Positions 13,347 to 41,191 of a stretch of DNA of 64,000 nucleotides are shown here, piece by piece. Every line of letters starts with the position of its first letter. The stretch's first letter is position 1. Both the position numbers and the translations under genes were made by a program. This DNA comes from Castellaniella sp. MT123 (GTDB lineage: Bacteria > Pseudomonadota > Gammaproteobacteria > Burkholderiales > Burkholderiaceae_B): the NCBI RefSeq assembly GCF_039614765.1, contig NZ_CP154879.1, positions 2,418,001 through 2,482,000 of the forward strand, given 5' to 3'. Below the pieces are notes generated by a model, which saw nothing but the letters and a program-made list of their open reading frames with translations, made no database searches and was not told where the DNA came from.

Positions 13347-13359
13347 AGAACCGCATTCG
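13347..13359. promoter_or_regulatory. Operator-like site 1, upstream of iclR
   Basis: AGAACCGCATTCG matches the 13-bp consensus AGAAC-N3-RTTCT with one mismatch. It overlaps a second palindrome, AACCG-CATT-CGGTT (13349-13362). It lies 60-72 nt before the iclR start and suggests autoregulation. Confidence 0.55.
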
Positions 13360-13418
13360 GTTATCATAGTTTCTTTCTCGATACCCTTCGAATCCGAACC
13401 TCAAGAGGGCGACTGGCC

Positions 13419-14132
13419 ATGACCCGTGAAGGCGTTGCTGCAGTGGATCGCGCACTGACCATACTGGATGTATTCATGGAAGGGGGGGAAAGCCTGACCC
13501 TGACCGATATCTCGAAACGCTCGGGATTCTACAAAAGCACGACACTGCGGCTGGCGGAATCCCTGGAAAAGTTCGGCTATCTGCGCCGCCTGGAAGACGG
13601 CACCTACCGGCTCGGCCCCAAACCCCTGTATCTGGGGTCGCTCTATCAGCGGCATTTCCGCAGCGCGGACATCGTCGTGCCGGTGCTACGCAAGATCGTG
13701 GACGAACTCCAGGAAGGCGCGTCTTTCTTCATTCAGGACAACAACGCCCGGATCTGTCTGCACCGGGTCGATGCGCCGCGCTCCGTACGGGACTCCGTCC
13801 ACGAGGGGGACGCACTGCCGCTGGGGGTAGGCGCCTCGGGTCACGTCATGCGCGCATTCGCTGGCGAGACCGGCGAGAAATACGACCGGATCCGACAGTC
13901 TCTTTATTCGATTTCCCTGGGCGAACGCGATCCCGAGATCGGCGCCGTCGCCTGTCCGGTGTTCGGCATCGGCCAGAAACTCGCCGGCGTCGTGTCCACC
14001 TCCGGTCCGAAATACCGCTTCAGCGACGAAAAGGTCGCCCAGATCATCCCCATCCTGAAACACCACGCCGCCGACCTGACCCAGGCCTTGGGCGGCCGCT
14101 GGCCCGATGACGGCGCGGGACCCGCGGCATGA
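13419..14132 (+). CDS. IclR-family transcriptional regulator
   Basis: This protein of 237 residues has an N-terminal winged helix (about residues 9-70, containing LTLTDISKRSGFYKSTTLRL) and a C-terminal IclR effector domain (about 85-225). IclR members often control aromatic and hydroaromatic catabolism (PcaR, PobR and similar). It is the first gene of a three-gene operon, and its ATGA stop-start overlaps the next gene by 4 nt. The repeated 13-bp inverted repeat upstream of most promoters in this block, including its own, makes it the best candidate for the regulon's controller. Effector and sign of control are unknown. Confidence 0.92.
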   Translation: MTREGVAAVDRALTILDVFMEGGESLTLTDISKRSGFYKSTTLRLAESLEKFGYLRRLEDGTYRLGPKPLYLGSLYQRHFRSADIVVPVLRKIVDELQEGASFFIQDNNARICLHRVDAPRSVRDSVHEGDALPLGVGASGHVMRAFAGETGEKYDRIRQSLYSISLGERDPEIGAVACPVFGIGQKLAGVVSTSGPKYRFSDEKVAQIIPILKHHAADLTQALGGRWPDDGAGPAA

Positions 14133-15028
14133 CCTCCCAGGCCCCCGACACCGAGGCCAATCCGCTGGCAATCCGTGGGATCGAATTCGTGGAGTTCGCC
14201 TCCAGCCGCCCCGAGGAACTGGGGGCCGTGCTGACCCGGATCGGATTCCAGCTGCTAGCCCGGCATTGTTCTCGCCAGGTGTTCCTGTACCGGCAGGGCG
14301 ACATGAACATCATCGTCAACGCCGACCCGACCACCCTGAGCGGCATGTCTCGGGACGATGAAGACCATCAGATCAGCGCCCTGGCCCTGCGGGTCGATGA
14401 CGCCAGCCGGGCCTACGACCGCTGCCTTCAATGGGGCGCATGGCCCATTCCCACCCGGGCGGGCGCAATGGAATTGAACATCCCCGGCATCCACGGCGTC
14501 GGGGACACGATCGTTTATCTGGTCGATCACCGCCGGCTGTTTCCCATCTACGACGTCGATTTCGTTTACCTGGGCGCCCAGCGTCAGGTGGCCCCCATCA
14601 TCCCCGGCCTGCATTTCTTCGGTCTGGTGCAATACGTCGGCCTCGGGCGCAGCGCCGAATGGATCGACTTCTATGGCCAGCTATTCGGTTTCAAGGCACT
14701 GCCCACAGCAACCCATTTCGGCATTCTTCCGCACGGCACCATTCTGGCCAGCCCCTGCGGCGGTTTCTACCTGCAATTGGTCGAACCGATGGGCGACGCT
14801 CTGTACGACACTGAATGGTATGAGCAGTTCGCCAGGCTGGCCTTCGGCGCGCCGGACGTCCTTGAAGCCGTGCGCGCCCTCGCCGCGCGGGGTGTCCCCT
14901 TCCAGGACAATGCCTTCATCCACACGGATGCCCACGGCGCCATCACGGCCGCCATGTCTTATGACGTGACATTCGAACTGGTGCGCCACGTGGCCCCCCG
15001 CCAGGATGGCGCTGAGGCGGCGCCTTGA
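14129..15028 (+). CDS. HPPD-like VOC protein, QuiC C-terminal-half homologue
   Basis: This protein of 299 residues has two vicinal-oxygen-chelate repeats (from about residues 17 and 160) like the C-terminal half of the fused 3-dehydroshikimate dehydratase QuiC and like 4-hydroxyphenylpyruvate dioxygenase. When I align the second repeat at FYGQLFGF with the HPPD FYE-LF-F motif, the first metal His is Gly and the second (in HPPD QHIAF) is Arg (ARLAF); only the late Glu in FELVRHV looks conserved. Dioxygenase activity is therefore doubtful. It overlaps the TIM-barrel gene by 4 nt, so the two proteins are probably made in equal amounts and may form a complex. Confidence 0.8.
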   Translation: MTSQAPDTEANPLAIRGIEFVEFASSRPEELGAVLTRIGFQLLARHCSRQVFLYRQGDMNIIVNADPTTLSGMSRDDEDHQISALALRVDDASRAYDRCLQWGAWPIPTRAGAMELNIPGIHGVGDTIVYLVDHRRLFPIYDVDFVYLGAQRQVAPIIPGLHFFGLVQYVGLGRSAEWIDFYGQLFGFKALPTATHFGILPHGTILASPCGGFYLQLVEPMGDALYDTEWYEQFARLAFGAPDVLEAVRALAARGVPFQDNAFIHTDAHGAITAAMSYDVTFELVRHVAPRQDGAEAAP

Positions 15029-15885
15029 ACCGGGAACGCTTCAGCATCGATCTGGCCTGCATGGCGGGCCCCCTGGAAGAACGCCTGGCGGCCGCTGAGG
15101 CCGCCGGGTTTTCCCAGGTAATGCTGTGGGCCCGGGATCTGGCCGATCACCCCCGGGGCTACGAAGCAGCGCTTCGCCTGGTGCGCGACAGCCGGCTGGA
15201 AGTCACAGGGCTGCAGCTGATGAGCAACTACGAGGGCATGAGCGGACCGGCGCACGAATACAAACTGGATATCGCCAAGGCCCTGCTGGACGTCTGTATC
15301 GACGTCGGGGCGCCGTTGCTGGTCGTTTCCGCCCGCGCCGATATTTCGCACGAACAGGATGCCCGCCAGCAGGCCGTACACGACCTGCGCAAGCTCGCAA
15401 ACCTGGCGGTACCGACCGGGGTGCGCATCGGCTTCAAGGCCATCCCGTGGGGCGGCGGCATCTCGGATGACCAGGGCGCATGGGATCTGGTCATCCGCGC
15501 CCGCCATGCCAATCTGGGGCTGGTGCTCGATGCCTTCAATTTCATCGCCAGCGGCCACTCGCTGGATTCTTTGGATGAAATCGCGCCGGACAAGATCATG
15601 CTGGTTCAACTGGCGGATTTCAGCTCGCCGGCCTTCCAAGAACTCCGGCGTCACGACACCGACCCAATGCCGGTGTTTCCCGGCAGCGGCGTATTCTCCG
15701 ACCAGGTCGCGGCGTTCGTGCGGCATCTGGACCGGATGGATTACGACGGGGACTACAGTCTGCAGGTTGCCAACGAGGACTACCGCCAGCTTCCGGCGCG
15801 GGCTGTGGCCGCGCTGGGGGCGCGATCGATGGCCTGGGTGCACCAGCAGATACTGCGCCGCCGCCTGCCGATCCGCCGGACTTAG
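15025..15885 (+). CDS. QuiC-like TIM-barrel protein with altered metal site
   Basis: This xylose-isomerase-like TIM barrel of 286 residues resembles the N-terminal dehydratase domain of QuiC. The TTG start at 15025 overlaps the preceding stop and places FSIDLACMAGPLEERLAAAE where the family begins; the next ATG (15061) would cut the first strand. The metal ligands that I recall for Pseudomonas QuiC1 (Glu134, Asp165, Gln191, Glu239) correspond here to Lys138, Asp169, Gln195 and Gln247, and the usual His after the Asp is Asn172. With two acidic ligands gone, ordinary dehydroshikimate dehydration looks unlikely. It may be a regulatory or scaffold subunit, or use another chemistry. It meets the convergent aldehyde dehydrogenase gene with a 4-nt overlap. 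Confidence 0.8.
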   Translation: MNRERFSIDLACMAGPLEERLAAAEAAGFSQVMLWARDLADHPRGYEAALRLVRDSRLEVTGLQLMSNYEGMSGPAHEYKLDIAKALLDVCIDVGAPLLVVSARADISHEQDARQQAVHDLRKLANLAVPTGVRIGFKAIPWGGGISDDQGAWDLVIRARHANLGLVLDAFNFIASGHSLDSLDEIAPDKIMLVQLADFSSPAFQELRRHDTDPMPVFPGSGVFSDQVAAFVRHLDRMDYDGDYSLQVANEDYRQLPARAVAALGARSMAWVHQQILRRRLPIRRT

Positions 15886-17357
15886 CGCCGGATGAACGGA
15901 TTGGGAACGTCCAAATCCGTGGAGATCCAGACGCTCTTGGTGTTCAGGTATTCGTGGATGGCGTCCGAACCCGACTCGCGCCCGATGCCCGAACGTTTAT
16001 AGCCACCAAATGGCGTCGTGAAACTGGTGGCGCGATAGTTGTTCACCCAGACCGTCCCGGCTTTCAGGCGTTCGGTCACATACATCGCTCTATGCAAGCT
16101 GCGCGTCCAGACAGCGCCGGCCAGGCCATACAGAATGTCGTTGCCGATGCGGATGGCGTCGTCCTCGTCCTTGAAAGGAATGATGCACACCACAGGACCG
16201 AAAACCTCTTCCTGGGCGATCCGCATGCGATTGTTCACGCCCGTGAAAATCGTGGGCTCGACAAACTGACCAGCCCCCAGATCGCCACGGGCCTTGCCGC
16301 CCATCACGCAGCGGGCGCCCTCGTCGCGCGCGATCTGGATGTAATCGAGGATCTTCTCGAACTGAGGCCGGGTCGCGATCGGGCCGATCTGCGTATCCGG
16401 CAAGGTCGGATCGCCCAACTTGGCCTGGCTGACGAAATCGACCAGCCGTCGCACCAGTTCGTCGTGGATATTTTCCTGTACCAGCACGCGCGAGCCCGCC
16501 TGGCAACTCTGGCCGGAAGCGGCGAAGACACCGGACACCACGCCCTTGACTGCCTGATCCAGATCCGCGTCGTCGAAAATGATGTTGGGCGATTTGCCTC
16601 CCAGTTCCAGCGTGACGGTTTTCAGATGGCGCGCCGCCGCTTCATAGATGCGCTTGCCGGCCAGTTCACCGCCGGTGAATCCGACGTGGGCCACGTCGGG
16701 ATGCGCAACCAGCGGTTCCCCGACCTCGGGACCGAAGCCGGTCACGACATTGACCACCCCCGGCGGAAAACCGGCCTTTTCAAACAACGCGGCGAATTCC
16801 AGCATCGAAGCCGACGTGAATTCGGAAGGCTTGATCACGGCGGTGCAACCGGCGGCCAGGGCCGGAGCAAGCTTCCAGCTGGTCAGCGTCAGAGGTGAAT
16901 TCCAGGGGGTGATGATTGCCACCACGCCCTTGGCCTCGTAGCGGGTGTAGGTGAACACACCCTGTTTGTCCGTAGGGATGACCTTGCTTTCAACCTTGTC
17001 TGCCAAGCCCGCGTAATAGTGGAAATAATCCCCCATGTAGCGCACCTGCGCCACGACCTCGGACGACAGCTTGCCGTTGTCGCGCTGCTCGACTTCCGCC
17101 AGGCGCGGCGCCTGCTCGATGATGAGATCGGCCAGGCGGCGCAGCAACTGGCCGCGCCGCGTCGCGGTCAGCCCGCCCCAGGGGCCTTCGAAGGCCGTCT
17201 TCGCCGCCAGCACGGCGGCATTCACGTCCTGGGCATCGCCCCGGGCGATACGGGCCCAGGCCTGGCCGGTGTAGGGATTGTCGGTATCGAAATAGTCGCC
17301 GCGGGCCGGGGGCGCATAGGCGCCGTTGATGAAGTGATCGTAATGGGGAAGAGACAT
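15882..17357 (-). CDS. NAD(P)-dependent aldehyde dehydrogenase
   Basis: This aldehyde dehydrogenase of 491 residues would oxidise an aldehyde to an acid. The general-base Glu is in TLELGGKSPN and the nucleophilic Cys is in GQSCQAGSR; the cofactor motif GFTGGELAGK is present. I use the ATG at 17357 (MSLPHYDHFING); an in-frame TTG lies 24 nt upstream. It is probably co-transcribed with the Gfo/Idh gene (37-nt gap). The family covers betaine, hydroxymuconic and other semialdehydes, so the substrate cannot be named. Confidence 0.92.
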   Translation of the reverse strand: MSLPHYDHFINGAYAPPARGDYFDTDNPYTGQAWARIARGDAQDVNAAVLAAKTAFEGPWGGLTATRRGQLLRRLADLIIEQAPRLAEVEQRDNGKLSSEVVAQVRYMGDYFHYYAGLADKVESKVIPTDKQGVFTYTRYEAKGVVAIITPWNSPLTLTSWKLAPALAAGCTAVIKPSEFTSASMLEFAALFEKAGFPPGVVNVVTGFGPEVGEPLVAHPDVAHVGFTGGELAGKRIYEAAARHLKTVTLELGGKSPNIIFDDADLDQAVKGVVSGVFAASGQSCQAGSRVLVQENIHDELVRRLVDFVSQAKLGDPTLPDTQIGPIATRPQFEKILDYIQIARDEGARCVMGGKARGDLGAGQFVEPTIFTGVNNRMRIAQEEVFGPVVCIIPFKDEDDAIRIGNDILYGLAGAVWTRSLHRAMYVTERLKAGTVWVNNYRATSFTTPFGGYKRSGIGRESGSDAIHEYLNTKSVWISTDLDVPNPFIRR

Positions 17358-17394
17358 GATGGTATCTACTCTTTGGATCAAAAGGTCGGGAATC

Positions 17395-18453
17395 TCAGAC
17401 GGGCAGCGGAATGCTGACGGACCGGCCGCTGGCGGAGGCCTGGCGAATAGCTTCGACGACGCGCAGGTTCTGCACCCCGTCGCGCACGCCGACCAGCGGC
17501 CGGACCCGGCCCCGGATCACGGCGGCGAAATGCTCGATCTGGCGGGCCAGAGGATCGGCCCGCCGCAGTTCCAGGACCTGCGTGCGGAACGGCTTCCACC
17601 AGGAACGGTCCGCATCGTTTTCATAGAACCGCAGACGCATGGTCGGGATGGACAGGGACCCGACCGTACCCGCCAGCACGTAGCAATCCTCGTCGGGATA
17701 CGTGCTGTAGGCCTCGTTTTCCTGGGAGGTCTGTTCCCAGCTGCGCGGTGACGCAGCGGTATCGGACAACAGGAAGGTTCCCAGCGCGCCGCCCTGGAAT
17801 CGCAGGCCGAGCGCGACGGTGTCCTCGACCGGGAAGCCGCGAGCGGCATTCGAGGCTATGGCCTGGACCTCGACGATCTCGCCGCACAGGGCGCGCAGAT
17901 TGTCGATTTCATGGATCATATTCAGCAGAACCGGGCCACCGCCCGGCTGGGTTCGCCAGGGCGCCTCGGTGAAGTATTTATCTGGCTTGCAGAACATGGC
18001 GCTGCCCATGACGGCCACCACCTTGCCCAGGCGGCCTTCGCGCACGACACCGCGCGCCAGCGCCATGATGGGGCTATGCGCCCGGTGATGACCGACCAGG
18101 AACGGGACAGCGGACCGCTCGACGGCGTGGAGGAGCCGTTCGCCGTCTTCCAGGATGTGGGCCACGGGCTTTTCGATGAGCGCGGGGATCCCGGCGGCCA
18201 GGCATTCCAGCGCCTGATCAACGTGCATGGCATTGGGCGTGCCGATGATGACGCCGTCCGGTCGGGCCGTCTCGAACAACTGCGTCAGACTCTTAAAACA
18301 AGGGACGCCCGCATCGGCGGCCACTGCCTGAGCGGCTGGGGCGGGATCAACCACTGCGGAAAGGGCGCACGAGGCACTGGACTGAAGGCGCCGGATATGC
18401 TGACGCCCGATAAGACCAGCGCCCAGCACGGCGATCTTGAGTTTTTGAGTCAT
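17395..18453 (-). CDS. Gfo/Idh/MocA-family oxidoreductase
   Basis: This protein of 352 residues has an N-terminal Rossmann fold (VLGAGLIGRQHIRRL), the family EKPVA motif near residue 95 and a C-terminal substrate domain with GGGPVLLNMIHEID. Members oxidise or reduce polyols, inositols and sugar derivatives with NAD(P). With the aldehyde dehydrogenase it forms a two-gene operon divergent from the quinate-dehydrogenase/TRAP operon. A perfect operator-like site (18488-18500) lies 35 nt upstream of its start. A polyol-like or cyclohexane-polyol substrate would fit the context but is inference. Confidence 0.9.
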   Translation of the reverse strand: MTQKLKIAVLGAGLIGRQHIRRLQSSASCALSAVVDPAPAAQAVAADAGVPCFKSLTQLFETARPDGVIIGTPNAMHVDQALECLAAGIPALIEKPVAHILEDGERLLHAVERSAVPFLVGHHRAHSPIMALARGVVREGRLGKVVAVMGSAMFCKPDKYFTEAPWRTQPGGGPVLLNMIHEIDNLRALCGEIVEVQAIASNAARGFPVEDTVALGLRFQGGALGTFLLSDTAASPRSWEQTSQENEAYSTYPDEDCYVLAGTVGSLSIPTMRLRFYENDADRSWWKPFRTQVLELRRADPLARQIEHFAAVIRGRVRPLVGVRDGVQNLRVVEAIRQASASGRSVSIPLPV

Positions 18454-18487
18454 GGTCGGTCAGCCATCAACTATGGTTCTTTCTGAC

Positions 18488-18500
18488 AGAATCGTATTCT
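18488..18500. promoter_or_regulatory. Operator-like site 2, Gfo/Idh promoter
   Basis: AGAATCGTATTCT is a perfect palindrome around its central base and fits the consensus AGAAY-N3-RTTCT. It lies 35 nt upstream of the Gfo/Idh start, in the divergent promoter region of about 175 nt. Confidence 0.65.
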
Positions 18501-18559
18501 ATTACGCAGAATATCACAAGCTCGGGTAAGTCCCTAGGGAATTTTGTTTGACGTCACAT

Positions 18560-18572
18560 GAAACAGGATTCT
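18560..18572. promoter_or_regulatory. Operator-like site 3, quinate-dehydrogenase operon
   Basis: GAAACAGGATTCT has a full right half-site and a weaker left half (two mismatches to the consensus). It is followed by TATT as in the other sites. It lies 56 nt before the start of the dehydrogenase gene at 18629. Confidence 0.4.
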
Positions 18573-18628
18573 ATTCTATTCATACCTAATATGTACTAAA
18601 CGGTACATAACACACGGAATGACCCCGC

Positions 18629-19522
18629 ATGCGCCCCAAATCCGAAACTCCCGCTTTGCTGCTTGGCCTGATCGGCGAGGGCATTGGCGAATCCCTCAGC
18701 CCGACGCTCTATGAGAACGAGGCCGCCCAGCACGGCATCCTCTGCATCTACCAGCGGATCGATCTGGACGAGCTCGGCCTGACCGCCGAACACCTGCCTG
18801 AACTGCTTACCGCCGCCGAACGTTTCGGCTTCGCTGGCCTGAACATCACCCACCCCTGCAAACAGGCCGTAATCCCTCATCTGGACGAACTGTCCGACGA
18901 GGCGCGCGTCCTCGGCGCAGTCAACACCGTCGTCCTGCGCAACGGCCTGCGCATCGGCCACAACACCGACCACTACGGGTTCTCGCAAAGCCTGCGCGAA
19001 AAGCTGGGTACCCGTGAACCGGGTCACGTGGTTCAGCTGGGCGCGGGCGGGGCCGGCGCCGCGGTGGCCGACGCCATTCTTCGCCTCGGCGCCCGCAGCC
19101 TGATACTGTTCGATCAGGCGGCCGAACGCGCCGAACACCTGGTCCGGTCGCTGCGGACGCGCTTCCCCGGCATCCCGATCCAGGTCGGCACCGACGCCGC
19201 TCAGGCCATGCGCCAGGCCGACGGTCTGATCAACGCGACGCCGGTGGGCATGCGCAAGCATCCCGGCACACCGATCCCGCCGGCACTGCTGGAAACGCGC
19301 CACTGGTTCTCCGAAATCATTTATTTCCCGCTGGAGACGGAATTGCTGCACATCGCGCGCGAAAAGGGCTGCCACACGATCGACGGATTGGGCATGGTCG
19401 TGCACCAGGCGGCCCGGGCCTTCGAACTGTATACGGGCGGCCTGACGGCGGATGCGCGGCGCATGACGGCGCACGTGGCCGACGTGCTGCGGCAACGGGC
19501 CCAGGCCTCACTGGGCGGATGA
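18629..19522 (+). CDS. NAD-type quinate/shikimate dehydrogenase
   Basis: This AroE-superfamily protein of 297 residues is closer to the catabolic, NAD-dependent quinate/shikimate dehydrogenases (Corynebacterium type) than to biosynthetic AroE. The start LLGLIGEGIGESLSPTLYE has the family's substrate Ser pair. The catalytic Lys is in LNITHPCKQA and the Asp is in GHNTDHYGF. The Rossmann motif is GAGGAGAAVA, and NATPVGM and DGLGMVVHQA are conserved. It would oxidise quinate or shikimate to the 3-dehydro compound. It heads an operon with a TRAP importer and a dehydroquinate dehydratase, exactly the partners needed to import and convert quinate. Confidence 0.88.
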   Translation: MRPKSETPALLLGLIGEGIGESLSPTLYENEAAQHGILCIYQRIDLDELGLTAEHLPELLTAAERFGFAGLNITHPCKQAVIPHLDELSDEARVLGAVNTVVLRNGLRIGHNTDHYGFSQSLREKLGTREPGHVVQLGAGGAGAAVADAILRLGARSLILFDQAAERAEHLVRSLRTRFPGIPIQVGTDAAQAMRQADGLINATPVGMRKHPGTPIPPALLETRHWFSEIIYFPLETELLHIAREKGCHTIDGLGMVVHQAARAFELYTGGLTADARRMTAHVADVLRQRAQASLGG

Positions 19523-19552
19523 ATCCCCTACTCATGACAAAACGAACACATC

Positions 19553-20062
19553 ATGAATAATCTCCTCGATCCATTCACGAAGTTCCTGGGCTTGCTACTG
19601 GTCGCCATGATGGTGGTCATGGTCGCCCTGGTCTTCGGCAACGTCGTCCTGCGCTACGGCTTCAACTCGGGAATCATCCTGTCGGAGGAAGTCTCCCGCT
19701 CGCTGTTCATCTGGGTCACGTTCCTGGGCAGCATCATCGCCATGCACGAGAACGGCCACCTGGGCTCGAATTTCATCGTCCGCCGCTTCCCGCCCTCGAT
19801 CCGCCGCCTCAGCCTGTTCGCCGGGCGCCTGGCGATGCTGTACATCTGCTGGCTGGTGTTCTCGGGCGCCCTGACCCAGACGCAGATCAATCTGTCCGTG
19901 GCAGCCCCCATCACGGGCATGTCAATGGCCTGGTTCTACGCCAGCGGGGTCGTCTTCAGCGCCGCGGGCGCGCTGATCCTGCTGGGCGACCTGTACAGAA
20001 TCGCCACCGGATCCATGGAAACCGTGGACCGCTTCGTGGACGGCACCGGAGAAGACGCATGA
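19553..20062 (+). CDS. TRAP transporter small permease (DctQ type)
   Basis: This protein of 169 residues has four predicted membrane segments (about residues 12-34, 48-66, 88-108 and 125-147), the DctQ layout. The SLFIWVTFLG stretch is typical. It works with the large permease to drive solute uptake with sodium or proton gradients. It overlaps the large-permease gene by 4 nt. Confidence 0.92.
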   Translation: MNNLLDPFTKFLGLLLVAMMVVMVALVFGNVVLRYGFNSGIILSEEVSRSLFIWVTFLGSIIAMHENGHLGSNFIVRRFPPSIRRLSLFAGRLAMLYICWLVFSGALTQTQINLSVAAPITGMSMAWFYASGVVFSAAGALILLGDLYRIATGSMETVDRFVDGTGEDA

Positions 20063-21336: not shown

Positions 21337-21358
21337 CTCACCTCCAAAGGAGAAAACC

Positions 21359-22372: not shown

Positions 22373-22449
22373 TCGCGTCCGGCGCGGGCCGCCCCCCGGC
22401 CCGCGCCAGCCCTCTGATCCAGACCACAACTCAAGACAGGAAGCGTCGT

Positions 22450-22890
22450 ATGAAAATCCTCATGTTGCATGGCATCAACCACAATATGTTCGGCAAGCGC
22501 GACCCCAAACAATACGGGACGATCACGCTGGAGCAGATCGACGCGCAACTGGCCGGCCTGGCCAAGGAGCTGGGCGTCACGATCGACAGCTATCAGACCA
22601 ACTGCGAAGGCGCGATGTGCGAACGGATCCACCAGGCCTATCAGGACGGTGTGGACGCCGTCCTGATCAACGCCGGCGCCTGGACGCACTACAGCTATGG
22701 CCTGCGCGATGCCCTGGCGATCCTGACGGTGCCCATCGTCGAACTGCACATGTCCAACATCCACGCCCGCGAAGAATTCCGCCACAAGTCCGTCTTTGCA
22801 GAAATCGCGCTGGGCCAGATCTGCGGTTTCGGGGTGGACAGCTATCTGCTCGCCCTGCGCGCGGCCGTATCCGCCGCAAAGGCGAAGTAG
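22450..22890 (+). CDS. Type II 3-dehydroquinate dehydratase, variant
   Basis: This protein of 146 residues has the flavodoxin-like type II dehydroquinase fold. The catalytic set is present: Asn10, Arg17, Tyr22, Asn74, His80, Glu98, His100 and Arg107. The normally fixed N-terminal motif LNGPNLNLLG is changed to LHGINHNMFG, and the loop around QTNCEGAM is also unusual. It should dehydrate 3-dehydroquinate to 3-dehydroshikimate, or an analogue with a different ring substituent. It is the last gene of the dehydrogenase-TRAP operon and is followed by a terminator, so it looks catabolic rather than the housekeeping aroQ. Confidence 0.85.
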   Translation: MKILMLHGINHNMFGKRDPKQYGTITLEQIDAQLAGLAKELGVTIDSYQTNCEGAMCERIHQAYQDGVDAVLINAGAWTHYSYGLRDALAILTVPIVELHMSNIHAREEFRHKSVFAEIALGQICGFGVDSYLLALRAAVSAAKAK

Positions 22891-30164: not shown

Positions 30165-30174
30165 GTCGGCCTCC

Positions 30175-32298: not shown

Positions 32299-32363
32299 AT
32301 TGTCTCCTTGGACGAAACTCCGAGACTGGAGCTCGATTTGTTTTATAAATGAAATAGATGTCG

Positions 32364-34124: not shown

Positions 34125-34144
34125 GAGACTTGTCTCCTGAGTGT

Positions 34145-34969
34145 TCATTCGGGAAGTTCGGCGCGGGCCGGACCGGTGTAGGCGTACGGGATGGAGGGCG
34201 GCATCGGCCCCTTGATCCGTCGTCCCTCGCGCATCTGTTCCCAGGCATGGGCCAGGATGCCGACCGAACGCGACAGGATGAAAATCCCCCGCCCCAGTTC
34301 CGGCGCAAATCCCAGCTCGGAATAGATCACTGCGGTCGCACCATCGATATTCATGGGAATGTGGCGGCCTTTTTCCTGTTCCAGAACGACCTCGACCTGG
34401 CGCCCGATCCGGGCGAATTCCCCCGAAACGACCCCCTGGGACACCGCCTCGTCGACCAGGGCCAACAGTCGTTTGGCCCGCGGATCGCGTGGATGGAAAC
34501 GATGTCCGAAGCCGGGCACGATCTTGCCGTGTTCGGCCCGATACGCGTCCAGTGCGGCTTGAACCGGTTGCGGCTCGCCACGTCCGCCCCGCGCGCGGCT
34601 GTCCTGGTAGATCTCCATGCACTGCTGGCCCGCGCCGCCGTGGATGTCACCCAGGACGTTGACCGCCGATCCCATGGCGCCGTTCAGGCCCACGCCGCAA
34701 CTGATCGCCATGCGCGAGATCGCGATGGACGGCGCGTGTGGACCATGATCCACCGAAGAGACCAGAGCCGCTTCGAGCAGCGCCGCCTGGGCCTTACCCG
34801 GCAACTCGCCCCGCAGCATGAGCCAGATCATTTCCGGAAAGGAGATCCGGCCGATCAGATCCTGGATCGCATGCCCGCGAATGCGGATCTCGCCGGGATG
34901 AATGTCGATGATGCTGGTGGACCACCACTGGCTGGCCTGGTCCAAACGATCGTCGCGCTGTGCCGTCAT
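34145..34969 (-). CDS. Citryl-CoA lyase/citrate-synthase-like protein
   Basis: This protein of 274 residues matches the catalytic C-terminal part of citrate synthases and citryl-CoA lyases. The two active His residues are seen in GDIHGGAGQQ and PGFGHRFHPRDPRA, and the Asp in MNIDGATAVIY. Lacking the large N-terminal domain of true citrate synthase, it probably cleaves or forms a C-C bond in a citryl-CoA-like ester. I use the ATG at 34969; an in-frame ATG 9 nt upstream is possible. It sits between caiB and the ThDP enzyme gene, so a CoA ester made by the transferase could be its substrate. Confidence 0.87.
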   Translation of the reverse strand: MTAQRDDRLDQASQWWSTSIIDIHPGEIRIRGHAIQDLIGRISFPEMIWLMLRGELPGKAQAALLEAALVSSVDHGPHAPSIAISRMAISCGVGLNGAMGSAVNVLGDIHGGAGQQCMEIYQDSRARGGRGEPQPVQAALDAYRAEHGKIVPGFGHRFHPRDPRAKRLLALVDEAVSQGVVSGEFARIGRQVEVVLEQEKGRHIPMNIDGATAVIYSELGFAPELGRGIFILSRSVGILAHAWEQMREGRRIKGPMPPSIPYAYTGPARAELPE

Positions 34970-34988
34970 GATCCCCATCCCCCTCTTT

Positions 34989-36191
34989 CTATACCACATG
35001 TTCATCATGCATCCTGGCGATCTCGGCTTGCGTATAGCCCAGATCCGCCAGAATCAGATCCGTATGCTGGCCCAGCACCGGCGGCGGTGCTTCGACGTCG
35101 GGGCTGCCCCCGGCCATCTTGAATCCCGCCCGGGCCAGTTTGATCGGCCTGCCTACACCCGGCACGTCGTCGAACTGCCGGAGCAGCGCCCGTTCGATGA
35201 TCTGCGGATGATCGAGCGCATCCGGCACGCTCAGGACCCGCCCGGAGGGGACGCCGATCCCGGAAAGGACGGTCTCCCAATCGCGGGCCGATTTCCGGCT
35301 CAGGGCCTGTTCGATCTCGACTGTCAGCGCGGCCCGGTTCTGCTTGCGGCTCTCGCGTCCGGCGAACCGTGGATCGGCCTTCAGTTCGGGCCGGCCGATC
35401 GCATCCATCAGCGCTTCGAACTGCTCCTGCTTGTTGGCGGCGATATTCAGCGGGCCATCACCCGTCCGGAAAGTGCCAGAGGGCACGGCGGTGAAATTTT
35501 CGTTTCCCATGGGGCGCGGGGCCACGCCCGCGATCAGGTAATTGGAAACGACCCACCCCATCGTGACAATGGTGGAATCCAGCATGGACACGTCGATGAA
35601 ATCGCCCTCGCCGGTGCGCTGCTGCCGTACCAGGGCGCTGGCTACCGCGAATGCCGCGGTGATTCCGCCAATCGTATCGGCCATCGGATAGCCCACCCGC
35701 AGCGGCGCCGAGTCTTCGGTGCCGGTGATGCTCATCACCCCCGACAGCCCCTGGACGATCTGGTCGTACGCGGGCGCATGGCGCATCGGCCCTCCCTGGC
35801 CGAATCCGGAGATCGCACAGTAGACGAGTCTGGGATTGACCTTCTTGAGAGCATCGTAGCCGACGCCCAGACGGTCCATCACGCCAGGACGGAAGTTCTC
35901 GATCAGGGCATCCGCGGATTCGACCAGCCGACGCAGGACGTCCCGGCCGGCTGCGGATTTCAGGTTCAGGGTGATGGAGCGCTTTCCGCCGTTCTGAGCC
36001 AGAAAGGACGCCCCCATGCAGCGGCTGTTCAGCTCGGCGTCGGCGCCCAGCTGGCGCGCCAGATCCCCCGACCCCGGCACCTCGACCTTGATGACGTCGG
36101 CGCCGAGCAGCGCGAACTGATAAGCGCAGAACGGCCCTGCCAGGACATTCGTCAGATCCAGTATGCGGATACCCGCCAGGGCCTTTGCCAT
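34989..36191 (-). CDS. CaiB/BaiF family CoA-transferase 2
   Basis: This class III CoA-transferase of 400 residues starts MAKALAGIRILDLTNVLAGP and keeps the GADVIKVEVPG motif and the probable nucleophile Asp in GYPMADTIGG. It heads the eight-gene operon that ends with livF. An operator-like site (36239-36251) lies 48 nt before its start. It probably activates the imported acid to its CoA ester for the next enzyme. Confidence 0.92.
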   Translation of the reverse strand: MAKALAGIRILDLTNVLAGPFCAYQFALLGADVIKVEVPGSGDLARQLGADAELNSRCMGASFLAQNGGKRSITLNLKSAAGRDVLRRLVESADALIENFRPGVMDRLGVGYDALKKVNPRLVYCAISGFGQGGPMRHAPAYDQIVQGLSGVMSITGTEDSAPLRVGYPMADTIGGITAAFAVASALVRQQRTGEGDFIDVSMLDSTIVTMGWVVSNYLIAGVAPRPMGNENFTAVPSGTFRTGDGPLNIAANKQEQFEALMDAIGRPELKADPRFAGRESRKQNRAALTVEIEQALSRKSARDWETVLSGIGVPSGRVLSVPDALDHPQIIERALLRQFDDVPGVGRPIKLARAGFKMAGGSPDVEAPPPVLGQHTDLILADLGYTQAEIARMHDEHVV

Positions 36192-36238
36192 TCTGTTCCT
36201 CGCCTCATTCTGGTAATAGAATGACTATACAAAATATC

Positions 36239-36251
36239 AGAACAGAATTCT
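36239..36251. promoter_or_regulatory. Operator-like site 4, CaiB/Liv operon
   Basis: AGAACAGAATTCT matches the consensus AGAAC-N3-RTTCT exactly. It is nested in a wider repeat GAACA-N9-TGTTC (36240-36258). It lies 48 nt upstream of the caiB start at 36191. Confidence 0.65.
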
Positions 36252-36282
36252 ATTGTTCATAACTATTTTTTAGAATTCGGTT

Positions 36283-37098
36283 TTATTTATTGCGCAGTAA
36301 TTCCATTGTCTCGGAGATGTCCGGGCGCACGCCCCGCCACAGCAGGAAGCCCTCAGCCGCCTGGCTCACCAGCATGCCCAATCCGTCGGAGATCCGCGCC
36401 GCGCCGCCCTGCGTGGCATCCTCCATGAAAGCGGTATGTCCCTTGTTGTATGCCAGTTCGTAAGCCAGGGAGCCCTCGGCGAAGATCCCCTCGGGTAGCG
36501 GCAGGCGGTCGCCCGTCAGGCTGACCGAGGTGGCGTTGATCACCACATCGAATCGCCCCCCCTCGGCGAGCCGGATCGGCCCGGCCTCGACCTTGCCCGG
36601 CGCGGCATGGTCGCCGACGATCGCGCGCGCCTTGCAATCCGTGCGATTCACCACGAGGAAATACGCCGGCCCGGTCTCGAGCAGAGGCAGGAAAATGCCC
36701 CGGGTCGCTCCCCCTGCGCCGATGATCAACAATCGCCGGCCTTTCAGGGGAAAACCCAGGCGCTCCTGGATGTCGTTGACCAGCCCCGCGCCATCCGTGT
36801 TGTCACCGTACACGCCCGCATCGCCGAATTTCAGCGTGTTGACGGCCTGCGCGGCCCGGGCGCGGTCGGACAGCGTGTCGACCAGATCGAGCGCATCGAG
36901 CTTGAAGGGCGCCGTGACATTCATCCCCTTCCCGCCCTCGCGGATGAACCGGCGCACCGTCTCATGAAACGTATCGGCGGTTGCGAGAATGGTCTCGTAG
37001 CTCATGTCCTGCCCCAACTGGCGCGCAAAGGCCATTTGCAGGATGGGGGACTTGGATTGCGCCACGGGGTTGCCGATGATGGCATAACGGTCGGTCAT
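36283..37098 (-). CDS. Shikimate dehydrogenase family protein (AroE paralogue 2)
   Basis: This AroE-type protein of 271 residues begins at the ATG at 37098 (MTDRYAIIGNPVAQSKSP). The catalytic Lys is in MNVTAPFKLDA and the Asp in YGDNTDGAG, with the Rossmann motif GAGGATRG. Where AroE usually has NPIxHSxSP, this has NPVAQSKSP (His to Gln), a change shared with the paralogue at 38111. It is a single-gene unit with its own operator-like site. It may be a catabolic or substrate-altered relative; that the genome also has a normal biosynthetic aroE is an assumption. Confidence 0.88.
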   Translation of the reverse strand: MTDRYAIIGNPVAQSKSPILQMAFARQLGQDMSYETILATADTFHETVRRFIREGGKGMNVTAPFKLDALDLVDTLSDRARAAQAVNTLKFGDAGVYGDNTDGAGLVNDIQERLGFPLKGRRLLIIGAGGATRGIFLPLLETGPAYFLVVNRTDCKARAIVGDHAAPGKVEAGPIRLAEGGRFDVVINATSVSLTGDRLPLPEGIFAEGSLAYELAYNKGHTAFMEDATQGGAARISDGLGMLVSQAAEGFLLWRGVRPDISETMELLRNK

Positions 37099-37157
37099 GA
37101 CAAGGCCTATGAGTATGAGGGAAGGAGGCCTAATCTTAAGATGGTTTTCTATCCAAC

Positions 37158-37170
37158 ACAACAGAGTTCT
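37158..37170. promoter_or_regulatory. Operator-like site 5, AroE paralogue 2
   Basis: ACAACAGAGTTCT matches the consensus with one mismatch and is followed by ATT as in other sites. It lies 60 nt upstream of the start at 37098. Confidence 0.5.
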
Positions 37171-37191
37171 ATTATTTCGATCTATGCATCG

Positions 37192-38022
37192 TCAGCTTCC
37201 GAACCCGAACAACCGGAGTGGAGTTTCCCACATGACCCGGCGCCGCACCTGGGAATCGGGCATCAGGTCCTGCGCAAGCAGGAGCAGAGGACCGTAATCC
37301 AGACGCTCGGGGGCCTTCAGGTGTGGCCAGTCCGAGGCCCACAGACACCCTTCGGGACCGAAGGCGTCGAGCAACGCCCGCTGATAACGCTGCGCATCGG
37401 CGAAGGGATAGGCCATGGTGGAAAACTTGGACATGCCTGAGAGCTTGACGAACGTCCGCCCGGTGTCGGCCAGGCGCAGCAGCGCCTGAAACCCGGGCTG
37501 ATTCAGGCCCGCCGCGGCGTCCGGGCGCCCCGAATGATCGATGAGCAGCCGGACGCGGGTGCGTCCGATCAACGGCAGCAATCCGACCAACTGGTCTTTT
37601 TCGTATTGGAGCTGGGCGAACATGTCCAGGTCCGCCAGTCGATTGAACAAGGTATCGGCATGACTGAAATACTCGACCCCCTCGATCGAGACATTGACCG
37701 TCACCCCAAGAACGCCCTGCGACTTGAGGTCGGCGAGCCGTGCCGCCGATACATCGTTGGGGACGACCCCGATCCCCTTGAACCTGCCCTCGCCATGGGC
37801 GATCGCATCGAGCATGCAGCGGTTGTCGAACCCATAGCCAGAATTCGGACCCACCAGCAGCGCATGCCGCACACCATACGCCTGCATCACGGCGCGAAAC
37901 TGGATCGCGGTGCCGATTTCCTGGCCGGCCGGCCGATAGGGCGTATCCTCGCGATAGGGGAAACGCTGTGGATCGATGATGTGGTTATGGCAATCGATCT
38001 TGGGTTCGTCGAAGATGGTCAC
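37192..38022 (-). CDS. Amidohydrolase, LigI-like (COG3618 type)
   Basis: This protein of 276 residues belongs to the metal-dependent amidohydrolases close to 2-pyrone-4,6-dicarboxylate lactonase. The metal motif is KIDCHNHIIDP, a later His is in RLLIDHSGRP and the catalytic Asp is in CLWASDWPHLKAP. I choose the GTG start at 38022 because it begins the conserved part and leaves the operator-like palindrome at 38041-38053 outside the gene; the frame is open to 38085. LigI opens a lactone in protocatechuate 4,5-cleavage, which would fit a downstream role here, but this family has many other lactone or amide substrates. Confidence 0.85.
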   Translation of the reverse strand: MTIFDEPKIDCHNHIIDPQRFPYREDTPYRPAGQEIGTAIQFRAVMQAYGVRHALLVGPNSGYGFDNRCMLDAIAHGEGRFKGIGVVPNDVSAARLADLKSQGVLGVTVNVSIEGVEYFSHADTLFNRLADLDMFAQLQYEKDQLVGLLPLIGRTRVRLLIDHSGRPDAAAGLNQPGFQALLRLADTGRTFVKLSGMSKFSTMAYPFADAQRYQRALLDAFGPEGCLWASDWPHLKAPERLDYGPLLLLAQDLMPDSQVRRRVMWETPLRLFGFGS

Positions 38023-38040
38023 GGCGTTTCGCCCTATTTC

Positions 38041-38053
38041 AGAACTGAGTTCT
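38041..38053. promoter_or_regulatory. Operator-like site 6, amidohydrolase promoter
   Basis: AGAACTGAGTTCT is a perfect palindrome, and the arms extend to 7 bp as TCAGAAC-TGA-GTTCTGA (38039-38055). It lies about 19 nt before the GTG start at 38022. This is the best example of the repeated site. Confidence 0.7.
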
Positions 38054-38110
38054 GATAGTGTATGGGGCGGCGTGAAACCACGCAAGACGACGGAGCCAGG
38101 CGAGCCCCTT

Positions 38111-38920
38111 CTACCTCAGCATGGCGATGACCGGCCCCACATCGGGCCGGCATCCGAACCACAAACGATAGGACTCCGCCGCTTGCCCCACCAGCATGCC
38201 CAGGCCGTCGGATATCCGGCCGGCGCCCAGGCGCCGCGCGTCGCTCATGAACGCCGTGTCGCCTCTGCCATACACCATGTCGTAGGCCAGGGCGCCCGGG
38301 GCGAAGGATCCGCGCCCCAGCGGCAGGTGAACATCGCTCAGGCTGGCGGAGGTGGCATTGATCACGACGTCGAACGCGCCTTCCGCCATCGCGTCCAGCG
38401 GACCGGCTGCGGCGCCCGCCGCCGGCCCGCACGCGTCCAGCAATTCATGCGCCTTGCTCTCGGTGCGATTGACCAGCAGCAGATGGGCCGGCCCGGCCTC
38501 GATCAGCGGCTGCAGAATGCCGCGCGCTGCGCCGCCCGCGCCGATGATGAGGATGCGACGATTCTCCAGGACGACTCCCAGGTGGTCCCGGATGTCGCTG
38601 ACTAGTCCGACGCCGTCCGTGTTGTCGCCCTGGACGCCACCGGGCCCGAACTTGAGGGTATTGATGGCTCGGGCAGTCCGCGCCCGGGCTGACAGCGTGT
38701 CCGCGAACGCCATGGCGGCGAGCTTGAACGGCGCCGTGACATTCATCCCCTGGCCGCCCTCGTCGATGAACCGCCGCACGGTCTCGACGAAGTTTTCATG
38801 TGTGGCCAGCAATTTCTCATACTGCATGGCGTGACCGAACTGGCGCGCGAAAGCCGTGTGCAGGACCGGAGACTTGGATTGGGAGATCGGGTTGCCGATG
38901 ACGGCATAGCGGTTGGTCAT
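38111..38920 (-). CDS. Shikimate dehydrogenase family protein (AroE paralogue 3)
   Basis: This AroE-type protein of 269 residues starts MTNRYAVIGNPISQSKSPVL. The catalytic Lys (NVTAPFKLAA) and Asp (GDNTDGVG) and the GAGGAARG cofactor motif are present. Like paralogue 2 it has Gln where AroE normally has His in the substrate motif. The two proteins are clearly paralogues of each other. It is transcribed alone and divergently from the TIM-barrel gene at 39077; each has an operator-like site in the 156-nt gap. Confidence 0.88.
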   Translation of the reverse strand: MTNRYAVIGNPISQSKSPVLHTAFARQFGHAMQYEKLLATHENFVETVRRFIDEGGQGMNVTAPFKLAAMAFADTLSARARTARAINTLKFGPGGVQGDNTDGVGLVSDIRDHLGVVLENRRILIIGAGGAARGILQPLIEAGPAHLLLVNRTESKAHELLDACGPAAGAAAGPLDAMAEGAFDVVINATSASLSDVHLPLGRGSFAPGALAYDMVYGRGDTAFMSDARRLGAGRISDGLGMLVGQAAESYRLWFGCRPDVGPVIAMLR

Positions 38921-38995
38921 CGCGGATTCCTGCGAGTGCGGAAAGGGACCAAGGATACGGTGCCTGCTTCCCGGTGTAAACCTGGCCTCTTTAAC

Positions 38996-39008
38996 AGAAC
39001 TTGATTTT
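38996..39008. promoter_or_regulatory. Operator-like site 7, AroE paralogue 3
   Basis: AGAACTTGATTTT matches the consensus with one mismatch in the right half and is followed by ATTT. It lies 76 nt upstream of the aroE paralogue 3 start. Confidence 0.45.
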
Positions 39009-39028
39009 ATTTCAACGTTGCATCAGTC

Positions 39029-39041
39029 AGAATATAGTTCT
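39029..39041. promoter_or_regulatory. Operator-like site 8, TIM-barrel gene
   Basis: AGAATATAGTTCT matches the consensus AGAAY-N3-RTTCT exactly. It overlaps a further palindrome AATATAG-TT-CTATATT (39031-39046). It lies 36 nt before the start at 39077. Confidence 0.6.
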
Positions 39042-39076
39042 ATATTAATTGGAATTTGGCTTTCAGGACTTCCGCA

Positions 39077-39877
39077 ATGGCCCTCCAGTTCTCACTTGCC
39101 CACCTCACGGTGCTGACCTGCTCGCCCATGGACATGATCCACATCGCCCATCGCACCGGTTATAACTTCGTCAGCCTGCGCCTGACCGCCGTCACACCCA
39201 AGGAACACGTCTTTGCACTGCAGAACGACCGCGCCATGATGACCGAGGTGAAGGCGCTGCTGAAGGACACCGGGGTGCGCGTGCTGGACATCGAGCTTGC
39301 CCGCATGCCGCCCGAGGTCGAACCCGAAACCTATGCCGCCATCCTCGACGCGGCGGCGGAACTGGGTGCACAGCACATACTGGCCCAGTTGCCGGATCCC
39401 GACCGCGCGCGCGCCACGGCCCGTTTCGCGCGCCTGTGCGACATGGCCCTGCCCCTGGGCCTGTCCATCGGACTGGAATCCCCCACCTGGACGGCGACTC
39501 CGGATCTTCGGTCCGCGGCGGATGTGGTGCGCGCGGTCGGCCGATCCAATGCGGGCATTGTTGTCGATACCCTGCACTTCAACCGCTCCCGCGACAGTAT
39601 CGACGAATTGCGCACGATGCCTCGCGAATGGTTTCGCTTCGCCCAGGTCTGCGACGCGTCGGCCGGGATTCCGGATACCACCGAAGGCCTGATCCACACT
39701 GCGCGCAGCGAGCGCCTGGTCCCGGGTGAAGGTGGCATCGACATCCGCGGGATCCTGGACGCCTTGCCAGCCATCCCCTATTCCCTCGAGATCCCCAACG
39801 ACCCGCAGGTCCAGACCCTCGGCCACGAGGAATGGGCGCGCCGCTGCATCGAGGGCGCGCGCCGCTACCTGGCCTGA
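39077..39877 (+). CDS. QuiC-like TIM-barrel protein with complete metal site
   Basis: This sugar isomerase/epimerase-type TIM barrel of 266 residues starts at the ATG at 39077 (MALQFSLAHLTVL), with AGGA upstream. A complete metal-ligand set can be read: Glu134 (IGLESPTW), Asp164 with His167 (VVDTLHF), Gln190 (FAQVCD) and Glu238 (SLEIPND). The positions almost coincide with those I remember for Pseudomonas QuiC1. It is a better candidate for dehydroshikimate dehydratase than the protein at 15025, though hydroxypyruvate isomerase-like or epimerase roles remain possible. It is a single-gene unit under an operator-like site. Confidence 0.85.
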   Translation: MALQFSLAHLTVLTCSPMDMIHIAHRTGYNFVSLRLTAVTPKEHVFALQNDRAMMTEVKALLKDTGVRVLDIELARMPPEVEPETYAAILDAAAELGAQHILAQLPDPDRARATARFARLCDMALPLGLSIGLESPTWTATPDLRSAADVVRAVGRSNAGIVVDTLHFNRSRDSIDELRTMPREWFRFAQVCDASAGIPDTTEGLIHTARSERLVPGEGGIDIRGILDALPAIPYSLEIPNDPQVQTLGHEEWARRCIEGARRYLA

Positions 39878-39916
39878 GGCCCCTCCGGGCCCGCCGGCAT
39901 AGGGCGCCCGCAATCC

Positions 39917-41086
39917 TCAAGCCGTACCGTACAGCACTTCACCCTGCTTGCGCAGGGCGCGCGCCACGACGCTTCGGTGAACCTCCGAGGTGCCGTCGAA
40001 GATCCTGAAAATGCGGGCATCCCGGTACAGACGCTCGACCGGCAGGTCCGCACAATAGCCCATGCCGCCATAAACCTGGACCGCACGGTCGGCCACACGG
40101 CCCAGCATCTCGGACGCGTAGACCTTCGCCATGGAAATCTTTTCCCGGGGATCCTTACCGTTGTCGATGTCCTGGGCCGCATCCCAGACCATCCAGCGGG
40201 CCGCATTGATCTCGATGGCGCTGTCGGCCAGCATCTGCTGGATCATCTGGAAATCGCCGATGGCCTGGCCGAACTGTTTGCGCTCGTTGGCATAGGACAC
40301 CATCAGGTTCAGCAGGCGCGTCGCCTTGCCGACGGCCCGGGCGCAAACCTGCGCGAGCCTCACCCGGCCGAGGGTCTGGAGAATCTGTCCGAAACCGGAA
40401 CCTTCCGCACCCAGCAGGCTGTCCGGATCCAGGATCACTTCATCAAAATGCAATTCGACGTGGCTAGTGCCGGTCAGTCCCATCATCTTCTGATTGCGGC
40501 CCACTATCAGGCCGGGCAGATCCTTGTCCACCAGGAACAGGGATATTCCGCGCCCGCCCGCGGCTGGATCGGTCACGGCCGACACGACGAAAAAGTCCGA
40601 AAATTCCCCGTCGCTGATGAAGTGCTTGTTGCCGCTGAGCATCCAGCCTTCACCGCGCCGCACCGCGCGCGTCCGAATCGATGCTGCATCCGAGCCCGCA
40701 CCCGGCTCGGTGATCGCGAGCGAGCAGGTCCGATCGCCTCGCACGGTCGGCAACAGCCAGCGTTCGCGCTGCACTGCATTGGCGCCCAGAAGGACCTCGT
40801 ACACATTGCCGAAGGCGCGCCGGATGAGGATGTCCTTGGCGTGTCCGAACTGTTCCTCCACCAGCATGGTGTCCAGCGCGGAAAGCCCTCCGCCGCCGAA
40901 TTCCTCCGGGATGTTCATCGCGTACATGCAGTTGTTCCGCGATTTTTCGAACAGCGCCCGCGCCAGCCCGGGCTCCAGATGGCCCTTTTCCTCGATGCCC
41001 TCCTCCAGTGGCAGGAGTTCCTGCTCGACGAACTTCCTGACGGTATCGACGAGCATGACCTGCTCGGGACTGAGATTTAGATCCAT
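39917..41086 (-). CDS. Acyl-CoA dehydrogenase
   Basis: This FAD enzyme of 389 residues has the three ACAD domains: the N-terminal helices, the FAD motif region LAITEPGAGSDAASI near residue 125 and the C-terminal YGGMGYCADLPVERLYRDAR. In the position of the usual catalytic Glu (IYEGT) it has Asp (IFDGTSEVHR), as in ACAD10/11-type enzymes. It would introduce a 2,3-double bond into an acyl-CoA. It is a single-gene unit at the right end of the block, with an operator-like site 93 nt upstream. Confidence 0.93.
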   Translation of the reverse strand: MDLNLSPEQVMLVDTVRKFVEQELLPLEEGIEEKGHLEPGLARALFEKSRNNCMYAMNIPEEFGGGGLSALDTMLVEEQFGHAKDILIRRAFGNVYEVLLGANAVQRERWLLPTVRGDRTCSLAITEPGAGSDAASIRTRAVRRGEGWMLSGNKHFISDGEFSDFFVVSAVTDPAAGGRGISLFLVDKDLPGLIVGRNQKMMGLTGTSHVELHFDEVILDPDSLLGAEGSGFGQILQTLGRVRLAQVCARAVGKATRLLNLMVSYANERKQFGQAIGDFQMIQQMLADSAIEINAARWMVWDAAQDIDNGKDPREKISMAKVYASEMLGRVADRAVQVYGGMGYCADLPVERLYRDARIFRIFDGTSEVHRSVVARALRKQGEVLYGTA

Positions 41087-41178
41087 TGGAGCTCCTTGAA
41101 GGTATACAGAGGATCGACGCCCATGACTGCACCGGGATAATCCATTGATAGAGTCGGGGAGAGACTTACCTACAGAAT

Positions 41179-41191
41179 AGAACTCAGGTCT
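41179..41191. promoter_or_regulatory. Operator-like site 9, acyl-CoA dehydrogenase
   Basis: AGAACTCAGGTCT matches the consensus with one mismatch; flanking bases extend the repeat as ATAGAAC-TCA-GGTCTAT. It is the rightmost copy, 93 nt upstream of the dehydrogenase start and just outside the rpoC terminator. A separate 6-bp repeat TGCAAT-N7-ATTGCA lies at 41204-41222. Confidence 0.55.

Follow-up and report, generated by a model that had tools for sequence, protein, structure and literature searches.

The window analysed here is a 64-kb stretch (2418001-2482000) of the 3.37-Mb chromosome of Castellaniella sp. MT123; all positions below are window positions unless stated otherwise. It contains a catabolic block of genes (13347-41191) which interrupts the ribosomal str and rpoBC clusters (12652-45631). 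The block spans iclR to an acyl-CoA dehydrogenase gene, and is flanked by rpsL (12652-13026) and rpoC (41369-45631); the latter is presumed to be rpoC by recognition of its frame and length. The block lies in the same place, between rpsL and rpoC, on the contigs of two other Castellaniella genomes, G029 and G145. It encodes dehydrogenases, transporters, coenzyme A (CoA)-related enzymes and regulators of the IclR, LysR and TetR families. The subject of this analysis is a short inverted repeat which precedes its transcription units, and the protein likely to read it.

An earlier note on this DNA described the repeat as a 13-bp pattern, AGAAC-N3-RTTCT, at nine coordinates with up to two mismatches. 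All nine match on the plus strand: 36239 and 38041 have no mismatch, 13347, 18488, 37158, 38996, 39029 and 41179 have one, and 18560 has two. At this tolerance there are 78 matches in the window on both strands versus 47.3 +/- 8.7 in 100 shuffles, none of which reached 78. This is weak specificity, and the 13-bp pattern was dropped as stand-alone evidence. When the sites are aligned, a longer 19-bp palindrome emerges, AATAGAAY-N3-RTTCTATT, and the specificity sits in its flanks. Leave-one-out scores of the nine listed sites range from 14.7 (18560) to 26.4 bits.

The consensus WAYAGAAYNNNRTTCTRTW occurs at seven places in the whole genome with up to one mismatch, and all seven are inside the 28-kb block. 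With up to two mismatches there are 17 places, ten of them in the block; with up to three the signal is drowned (108 places versus 71 for the reversed control). The genome scans gave 15 distinct places outside the block. The best of these reaches 16.5 bits versus 20.8-27.3 bits for the ten block sites, and 13 of the 15 are within open frames of at least 364 aa. The genome scan thus did not reveal the equal density inside genes that would have spoken against the proposal.

After correction there are ten sites, in seven intergenic regions and before nine presumed transcription units (Table 1). Eight of the coordinates first listed stand. The register at 18560 was dropped in favour of 18565, which overlaps it with a shift of 5 nt: with a motif learnt outside the genus (see below), 18560 scores 4.4 bits (rank 17) and 18565 scores 17.9 bits (rank 3). 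One site, at 36272, had been missed; its core overlaps the end of the aroE-a frame by two bases. The centres of the sites lie 25-99 nt upstream of the chosen start codons, in agreement with the 19-93 nt first given from the site edge before nearly every unit. Seven of the ten centres are 20-80 nt before the start, and the remaining three are at 82, 87 and 99 nt.

Table 1. Predicted operators and genes of the catabolic block. Score, bits with the motif built from block sites; indep, bits with the motif learnt outside Castellaniella. Genomes named are those in which the operator is also found.
Feature	Position	Core	Strand	Score	Indep	Basis or conservation
Operator before iclR	13344-13362	13347-13359	+	21.0	13.4	G029, G145
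Operator before Gfo/Idh-ALDH	18485-18503	18488-18500	-	24.4	14.6	G174, G029, G145
Operator before quinate/shikimate dehydrogenase-TRAP-aroQ	18562-18580	18565-18577	+	23.5	17.9	G174, G029; absent from G145
Operator adjoining CaiB1, promoter-proximal of tandem pair	36236-36254	36239-36251	-	27.3	19.8	G174, G029, G145
Second CaiB1 operator, 33 bp upstream	36269-36287	36272-36284	-	22.9	10.5	
Operator before aroE-a	37155-37173	37158-37170	-	25.7	16.3	G174
Operator before amidohydrolase	38038-38056	38041-38053	-	22.7	12.5	G174
Operator before aroE-b	38993-39011	38996-39008	-	25.1	15.9	G174; 33 bp from TIM-barrel operator
Operator before TIM-barrel gene	39026-39044	39029-39041	+	20.8	10.4	G174, G029, G145
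Operator before acyl-CoA dehydrogenase	41176-41194	41179-41191	-	26.5	27.8 (best in window)	G174, G029, G145
iclR, proposed reader	13419-14132		+			Pfam HTH_IclR 56.1 bits (cut-off 22), IclR_C 53.1 bits (cut-off 24)
Two genes after iclR: 4-hydroxyphenylpyruvate dioxygenase (HPPD)-like, then TIM barrel	14129-15885		+			Family searches
Gfo/Idh oxidoreductase	17395-18453		-			Family search
Aldehyde dehydrogenase (ALDH)	15882-17381		-			Family search
Quinate/shikimate-type dehydrogenase, DctQ, DctM, DctP, type II dehydroquinase	18629-22890		+			Family search
CaiB1, citryl-CoA lyase-like protein, thiamine pyrophosphate (TPP) enzyme, LivK-H-M-G-F	27689-36191		-			Family search
aroE-a (start 37098), amidohydrolase (start 38022), aroE-b	36283-38920		-			Family search, starts chosen
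TIM-barrel (AP_endonuc_2) gene (TIM2)	39077-39877		+			Start taken at ATG 39077
Acyl-CoA dehydrogenase (ACAD)	39917-41086		-			Family search

Since WAYAGAAYNNNRTTCTRTW was derived from the block sites themselves, a motif learnt without Castellaniella was used as the fair test. For 33 IclR homologues outside the genus, the preceding 250 nt were searched de novo for a palindromic motif. These comprise 27 non-genus loci plus L024, L025 and L028-L031. L026, L027 and L032 were excluded because they nearly duplicate L025 and L024; L022, L023 and the loci from the genus itself were excluded for being Castellaniella. The 27 loci are part of a larger match list, from which further listed matches yielded no loci and were unused, and several of the 33 regions are mutually near-identical. 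The palindrome recovered is AATAGAAATnATTTCTATT, with which 22 of the 33 regions exceed 10 bits (training-set scores).

In a scan of the window with this independent motif, the block sites take ranks 1-8, 10 and 11; rank 9 is at 59733, outside the block. There are 11 window positions above 10 bits; 200 dinucleotide shuffles averaged 0.35 such positions and never exceeded 2. The 14 intergenic stretches of the block (1919 nt, 50% GC) hold nine positions above 10 bits, distributed over seven of the stretches; segment-wise shuffles of the same stretches (n=1000) average 0.09 and never exceed 2. The other seven stretches, which have no site, comprise four presumed intra-operon gaps, two convergent gaps and the PanE-LysR gap. 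In the last of these the best score with the independent motif is 3.9 bits, which agrees with the earlier observation that the PanE/MaoC/CaiB2 and LysR/TetR units lack a site.

The closest named relatives of the block IclR are found in Castellaniella defragrans DSM 12141 (88% identity) and Castellaniella sp. S9 (84%). Ten genomes of the genus were surveyed, and palindrome matches were counted at up to one mismatch. The three genomes with iclR have seven (G000), four (G029) and five (G145) matches; one of the five in G145 is on another contig. G174, which belongs to the same species, also has five; iclR was not found in it, and the contig ends 79 nt past the Gfo/Idh site, before the iclR position. 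The six other genomes have no detectable iclR and 0 or 1 match each. All four genomes (G000, G029, G145 and G174) have sites above 14 bits before CaiB1, TIM2, ACAD and either Gfo/Idh or ALDH, and the three with iclR have one before that gene as well. Genes and sites are also absent together: the G029 and G145 contigs lack aroE-a and the amidohydrolase gene along with their sites, and the G145 contig lacks the TRAP genes along with the quinate-dehydrogenase operator.

Far from the block, on contig 1 of G145 (L121:9841), a 28.2-bit site stands just before an amino-acid-type ABC transporter unit. This unit is possibly an additional regulon member in Castellaniella sp. S9.

Outside the genus, six loci (L024-L028 and L032) from Thauera, Aromatoleum, Azoarcus and a contig labelled Thiobacillus encode an IclR protein with 62-65% identity to that of the block, together with CaiB1 (76-77%), the citryl-CoA lyase-like protein (64-68%) and the TPP enzyme (76-78%). 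They have sites before iclR and before CaiB1. The CaiB1 sites are paired 32 bp apart in all six loci; those in L024 and L032 are weak (13.2 and 11.0 bits). The triad of CaiB1, citryl-CoA lyase-like protein and TPP enzyme (32364-36191 in the window) accompanies this iclR from Castellaniella to Thauera and Aromatoleum. L032 is on a contig labelled as a Thiobacillus metagenome-assembled genome, and its layout and site positions are the same as those of the Thauera locus L024; the contig is probably wrongly binned.

These patterns bear on whether the repeat is an operator at all. It might be a by-product of AT-rich promoter sequence with a common -10 edge, since the TTCTATT edge is the -10 hexamer at several promoters and the loose 13-bp pattern is frequent. 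However, the shuffles confined to intergenic sequence yield on average far fewer positions than the nine observed, both halves of the palindrome are kept in other genera and at sites which are out of register with the -10, and genus members without iclR lack the palindrome. We consider this explanation scarcely credible.

Several observations connect the sites to the IclR protein. The centre of one site is 66 nt before iclR itself, and this site is kept in G029 and G145, as expected under autoregulation. The genome gives ten HTH_IclR matches, of which seven have E below 1e-6; among these ten loci (3 kb each) only the block iclR has the operator (21.0 bits, next best 11.8 bits). The proteins also differ in their recognition helices. 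In a comparison of 39 rows with an upstream span of 250 nt, 12 of the 15 YHST-type proteins have a GTCTRTT half-site upstream. An AGAAC/AGAAT-type site of at least 18 bits is found for 12 of the 22 YKST-type proteins and for both YQST proteins; among those with the exact helix of the block protein subclade, FYKSTTLRL, nine of 11 have an AGAAC/AGAAT-type site. Across these rows, recognition helix and half-site tend to change together.

The sites could instead be read by the LysR or TetR protein, whose genes are inside the block (26099-27687), or by an IclR paralogue elsewhere in the genome, for which the other HTH_IclR matches are candidates; a different IclR gene near a motif-like site in G088 points the same way. 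Against this, sites are present where these regulators were not found: TetR was not found in L024-L028, and LysR was not found in L025-L028 or on the G145 contig (these are stretches of 13-21 kb or single contigs, and either gene may lie elsewhere in the genomes concerned). LysR is present in L024 at 53% identity. The LysR/TetR unit itself has no site, and the other IclR loci lack the operator and have other helices where the frame could be read. A reader other than the block IclR is therefore very unlikely.

In alignments of the promoter regions the operator is flanked by a TTG-type -35 and a TAT-type -10 element. A total of 29 chosen promoter-site pairs were scored using -35/-10 weights and single-base shuffles; this set excludes the upstream sites of the CaiB1 pairs as well as the TIM2, ACAD, aroE and amidohydrolase sites of G174. 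In 15 of the 29 pairs the operator is centred 6 nt before the -10, a count to be read with the caveat that orthologous promoters are non-independent and that part of the -10 comes from the operator edge. Three of the 15 are in the 18560 register; the 18565 register at these three quinate-dehydrogenase promoters would put the operator over the -10. The operator is over the -10 in the four Gfo/ALDH promoters, and the remaining ten pairs scatter. Several sites continue with TATT because the operator edge is also the -10.

A number of results weigh against assigning the repeat to the block IclR. With the de novo motif, 11 of the 33 upstream regions do not exceed 10 bits (training-set scores). Ten of the 22 YKST-type rows and three of the 15 YHST-type rows have no site of the corresponding type within 250 nt upstream. 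The Zoogloea IclR proteins of L029 and L030 have the same helix; their upstream regions lack the motif and carry a conserved AAAACAGCGTTTT. The IclR protein near the motif-like site in G088 (21.1 bits) is a different one, and the motif therefore need not be exclusive to the block IclR. Chance matches at up to one mismatch occur inside genes elsewhere: two of the three single hits in the six iclR-less genomes (G062 and G160) fall in open frames. Lastly, only nine of the 29 promoter scores were reached by 5 or fewer of 100 shuffles, a modest strength; it is therefore the shared register and not promoter strength which is taken as evidence.

Set beside the rediscovery of the motif from other genera, its distribution in Castellaniella, the sites in loci where TetR or LysR was not found and the unique IclR locus, these points leave the central proposal of the earlier note, a single regulon read by the block IclR, well supported. 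The repeat is probably the operator of the block's own IclR (13419-14132), and the units it precedes would form one regulon. Counting by strand and spacing, with predicted operon limits, this regulon would comprise about 23 genes in nine units. The sites, their conservation and their link to IclR were established by computation; binding, the repressive sign of control, cooperativity, the inducer and the operon limits are what we infer from them.

In the Zoogloea loci, AAAACAGCGTTTT is about 160 nt upstream of iclR and is preceded by another GTTTT box. This region is possibly a diverged three-box operator.

How the regulon might work can be outlined from the arrangement of the sites. Each half of the 19-bp palindrome would be contacted by one helix-turn-helix of an IclR dimer, and the ten operators in seven intergenic regions would put nine units, iclR included, under one switch. 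Bound in the spacer or over the -10, IclR would exclude RNA polymerase. Where two operators are 33 bp apart (about three helical turns), two dimers would probably bind cooperatively. A metabolite of a quinate/shikimate-like pathway may release IclR, upon which the units would open together. Repression is the likely mode of control because the operators are between the -35 and -10 or over the -10, and we favour it over activation, with less assurance than the assignment to IclR itself.

Alternatively, the same IclR, once loaded with its ligand, could work at the same sites chiefly by activation or in a dual role, in the manner of PcaR on some promoters. The IclR family includes repressors, activators and dual regulators, according to the family survey (PMC8222616), and promoter context sets the sign of PcaR control (PMC12455658). 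In keeping with this, 20 of the 29 promoters score no better than shuffles (at the 5-in-100 level), as activator-dependent promoters may. PcaR reportedly also acts via both the -35 and -10 elements, going by the title of a 1999 paper, and this too was counted for activation or dual control. On the other hand, several promoters of the block have the operator overlapping their spacer or their -10. PcaR, itself an IclR protein, is a repressor where its box overlapped the -10 or lay downstream, and it activates elsewhere (PMC12455658); for PcaR, operator position relative to the core promoter decides the sign. The repressor PheR protects +23 to -21 of its promoter (PMC13273656). Activation or dual control is rather unlikely on this evidence, and repression remains the preferred mode.

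The nearest known systems are the group 2 regulons in the IclR-family survey of Suvorova and Gelfand (2021; PMC8222616). The group 2 consensus is TGRAACAN1-2TGTTYCA; examples are E. coli IclR (TGGAAATNATTTCCA) and KdgR (RWWGAAACGNCGTTTCAKKA). Like these regulons, the block has an odd palindrome with an RAAY-N3-RTTY core and the same layout, predicted autoregulation, sites 20-100 nt before starts, and tandem sites. In the survey, most site centres are 20-80 nt before starts, and a quinate/shikimate plus 4-hydroxyphenylpyruvate gene set recurs among the regulogs as it does in the block. There are also differences. The second base of the 15-nt core is A in the block and not G as in the consensus, and N3 is not fixed. 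Tandem sites in the survey are mostly 19-21 nt apart, with weaker trends at three and four turns, whereas the block pairs are 33 bp apart (32 bp in L024-L028 and L032) and so fall outside the 18-22 nt spacing; that spacing is found in 94 of 181 groups and hence is not required. Control in the family is usually limited to the regulator's own gene and one or two adjacent operons, as opposed to the nine presumed units of the block regulon.

The best NCBIfam match of the block IclR is TIGR02431, which covers PcaR, PcaU and PobR of the beta-ketoadipate pathway; at 85.5 bits it is far below the cut-off of 284.75. These regulators share with the block a role in aromatic or alicyclic acid catabolism, but their operators are of the GTNCG-N5-6-CGNAC type, unlike the block palindrome (PMC8222616). 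The block IclR is also below the equivalog cut-offs for E. coli-type IclR (59.0 versus 380 bits) and KdgR (52.9 versus 275 bits). The motif listed for PbaR of Sphingobium wenxiniae, a regulator of 3-phenoxybenzoate degradation, starts with AATAGAA like that of the block; as given in the survey (PMC8222616, Table 1), it is not a clean AATAGAAY-N3-RTTCTATT palindrome and belongs to another pathway. No earlier description of this regulon was found in the titles or abstracts shown for the papers listed, in a literature search largely without subscription journals.

The block is best classed as a putative autoregulated IclR catabolic regulon of an already known type; its size and promoter geometry are notable and involve no new principle. 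A wider interpretation is tentative, and we give it somewhat less than an even chance. Under it, an undescribed IclR subclade with the helix FYKSTTLRL would shut whole catabolic islands through one type of core-promoter operator, the edge of which doubles as the -10; in many cases another operator would stand three turns upstream. In genera ranging from Castellaniella to Thauera and Aromatoleum, the subclade would control an unassigned pathway that joins a CoA-transferase, a citryl-CoA-lyase-like protein and a TPP enzyme to quinate/shikimate-type entry reactions. A new intermediate of this pathway would be the inducer.

The assignment matters in several ways. From sequence alone, an IclR protein not yet characterised is given an operator and about 23 target genes, and the way in which helix and operator change jointly from genus to genus offers a testable case of IclR-DNA recognition. 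The regulon unites three aroE-type dehydrogenases, a split QuiC-like dehydratase, CaiB, citryl-CoA-lyase-like and TPP enzymes which have no agreed pathway. Quinate or shikimate is a plausible point of entry. The identity of the inducer would point to the substrate which the island degrades.

Some of the gene products deserve comment. Both aroE-a and aroE-b exceed the shikimate dehydrogenase cut-off, and the citryl-CoA lyase-like protein scores above its NCBIfam cut-off. At 14129-15885, QuiC (3-dehydroshikimate dehydratase) has seemingly been split into two genes in reversed order: the HPPD-like protein matches the C-terminal part of the QuiC profile and the TIM barrel the N-terminal part, and both are far under the whole-protein QuiC cut-off. 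The TPP enzyme was considered as a cyclohexane-1,2-dione hydrolase, and this name was dropped. In a PDB sequence search the corresponding entry, 2pgn, came only 23rd (E 7.8e-57), and acetolactate synthase and glyoxylate carboligase entries were ahead of it (best E 6.7e-81). L028 is Aromatoleum diolicum 22Lin, the source of cyclohexane-1,2-dione hydrolase; the name is not supported for the block enzyme.

A single frame at 24713-25990 joins a ketopantoate-reductase-like protein (PanE) to a glyoxalase domain at the C-terminus. The minus-strand frame 26054-27022 was rejected as a gene. Neither Pfam nor NCBIfam matches it, its PDB matches are unconvincing, and it runs antisense to the plus-strand frame 26099-27049, which, read by eye, we take to be LysR. 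G088 has another catabolic island near rpoC, with its own IclR gene (L124:7797-8627). This island is different from the block, and the region may therefore be an insertion hotspot.

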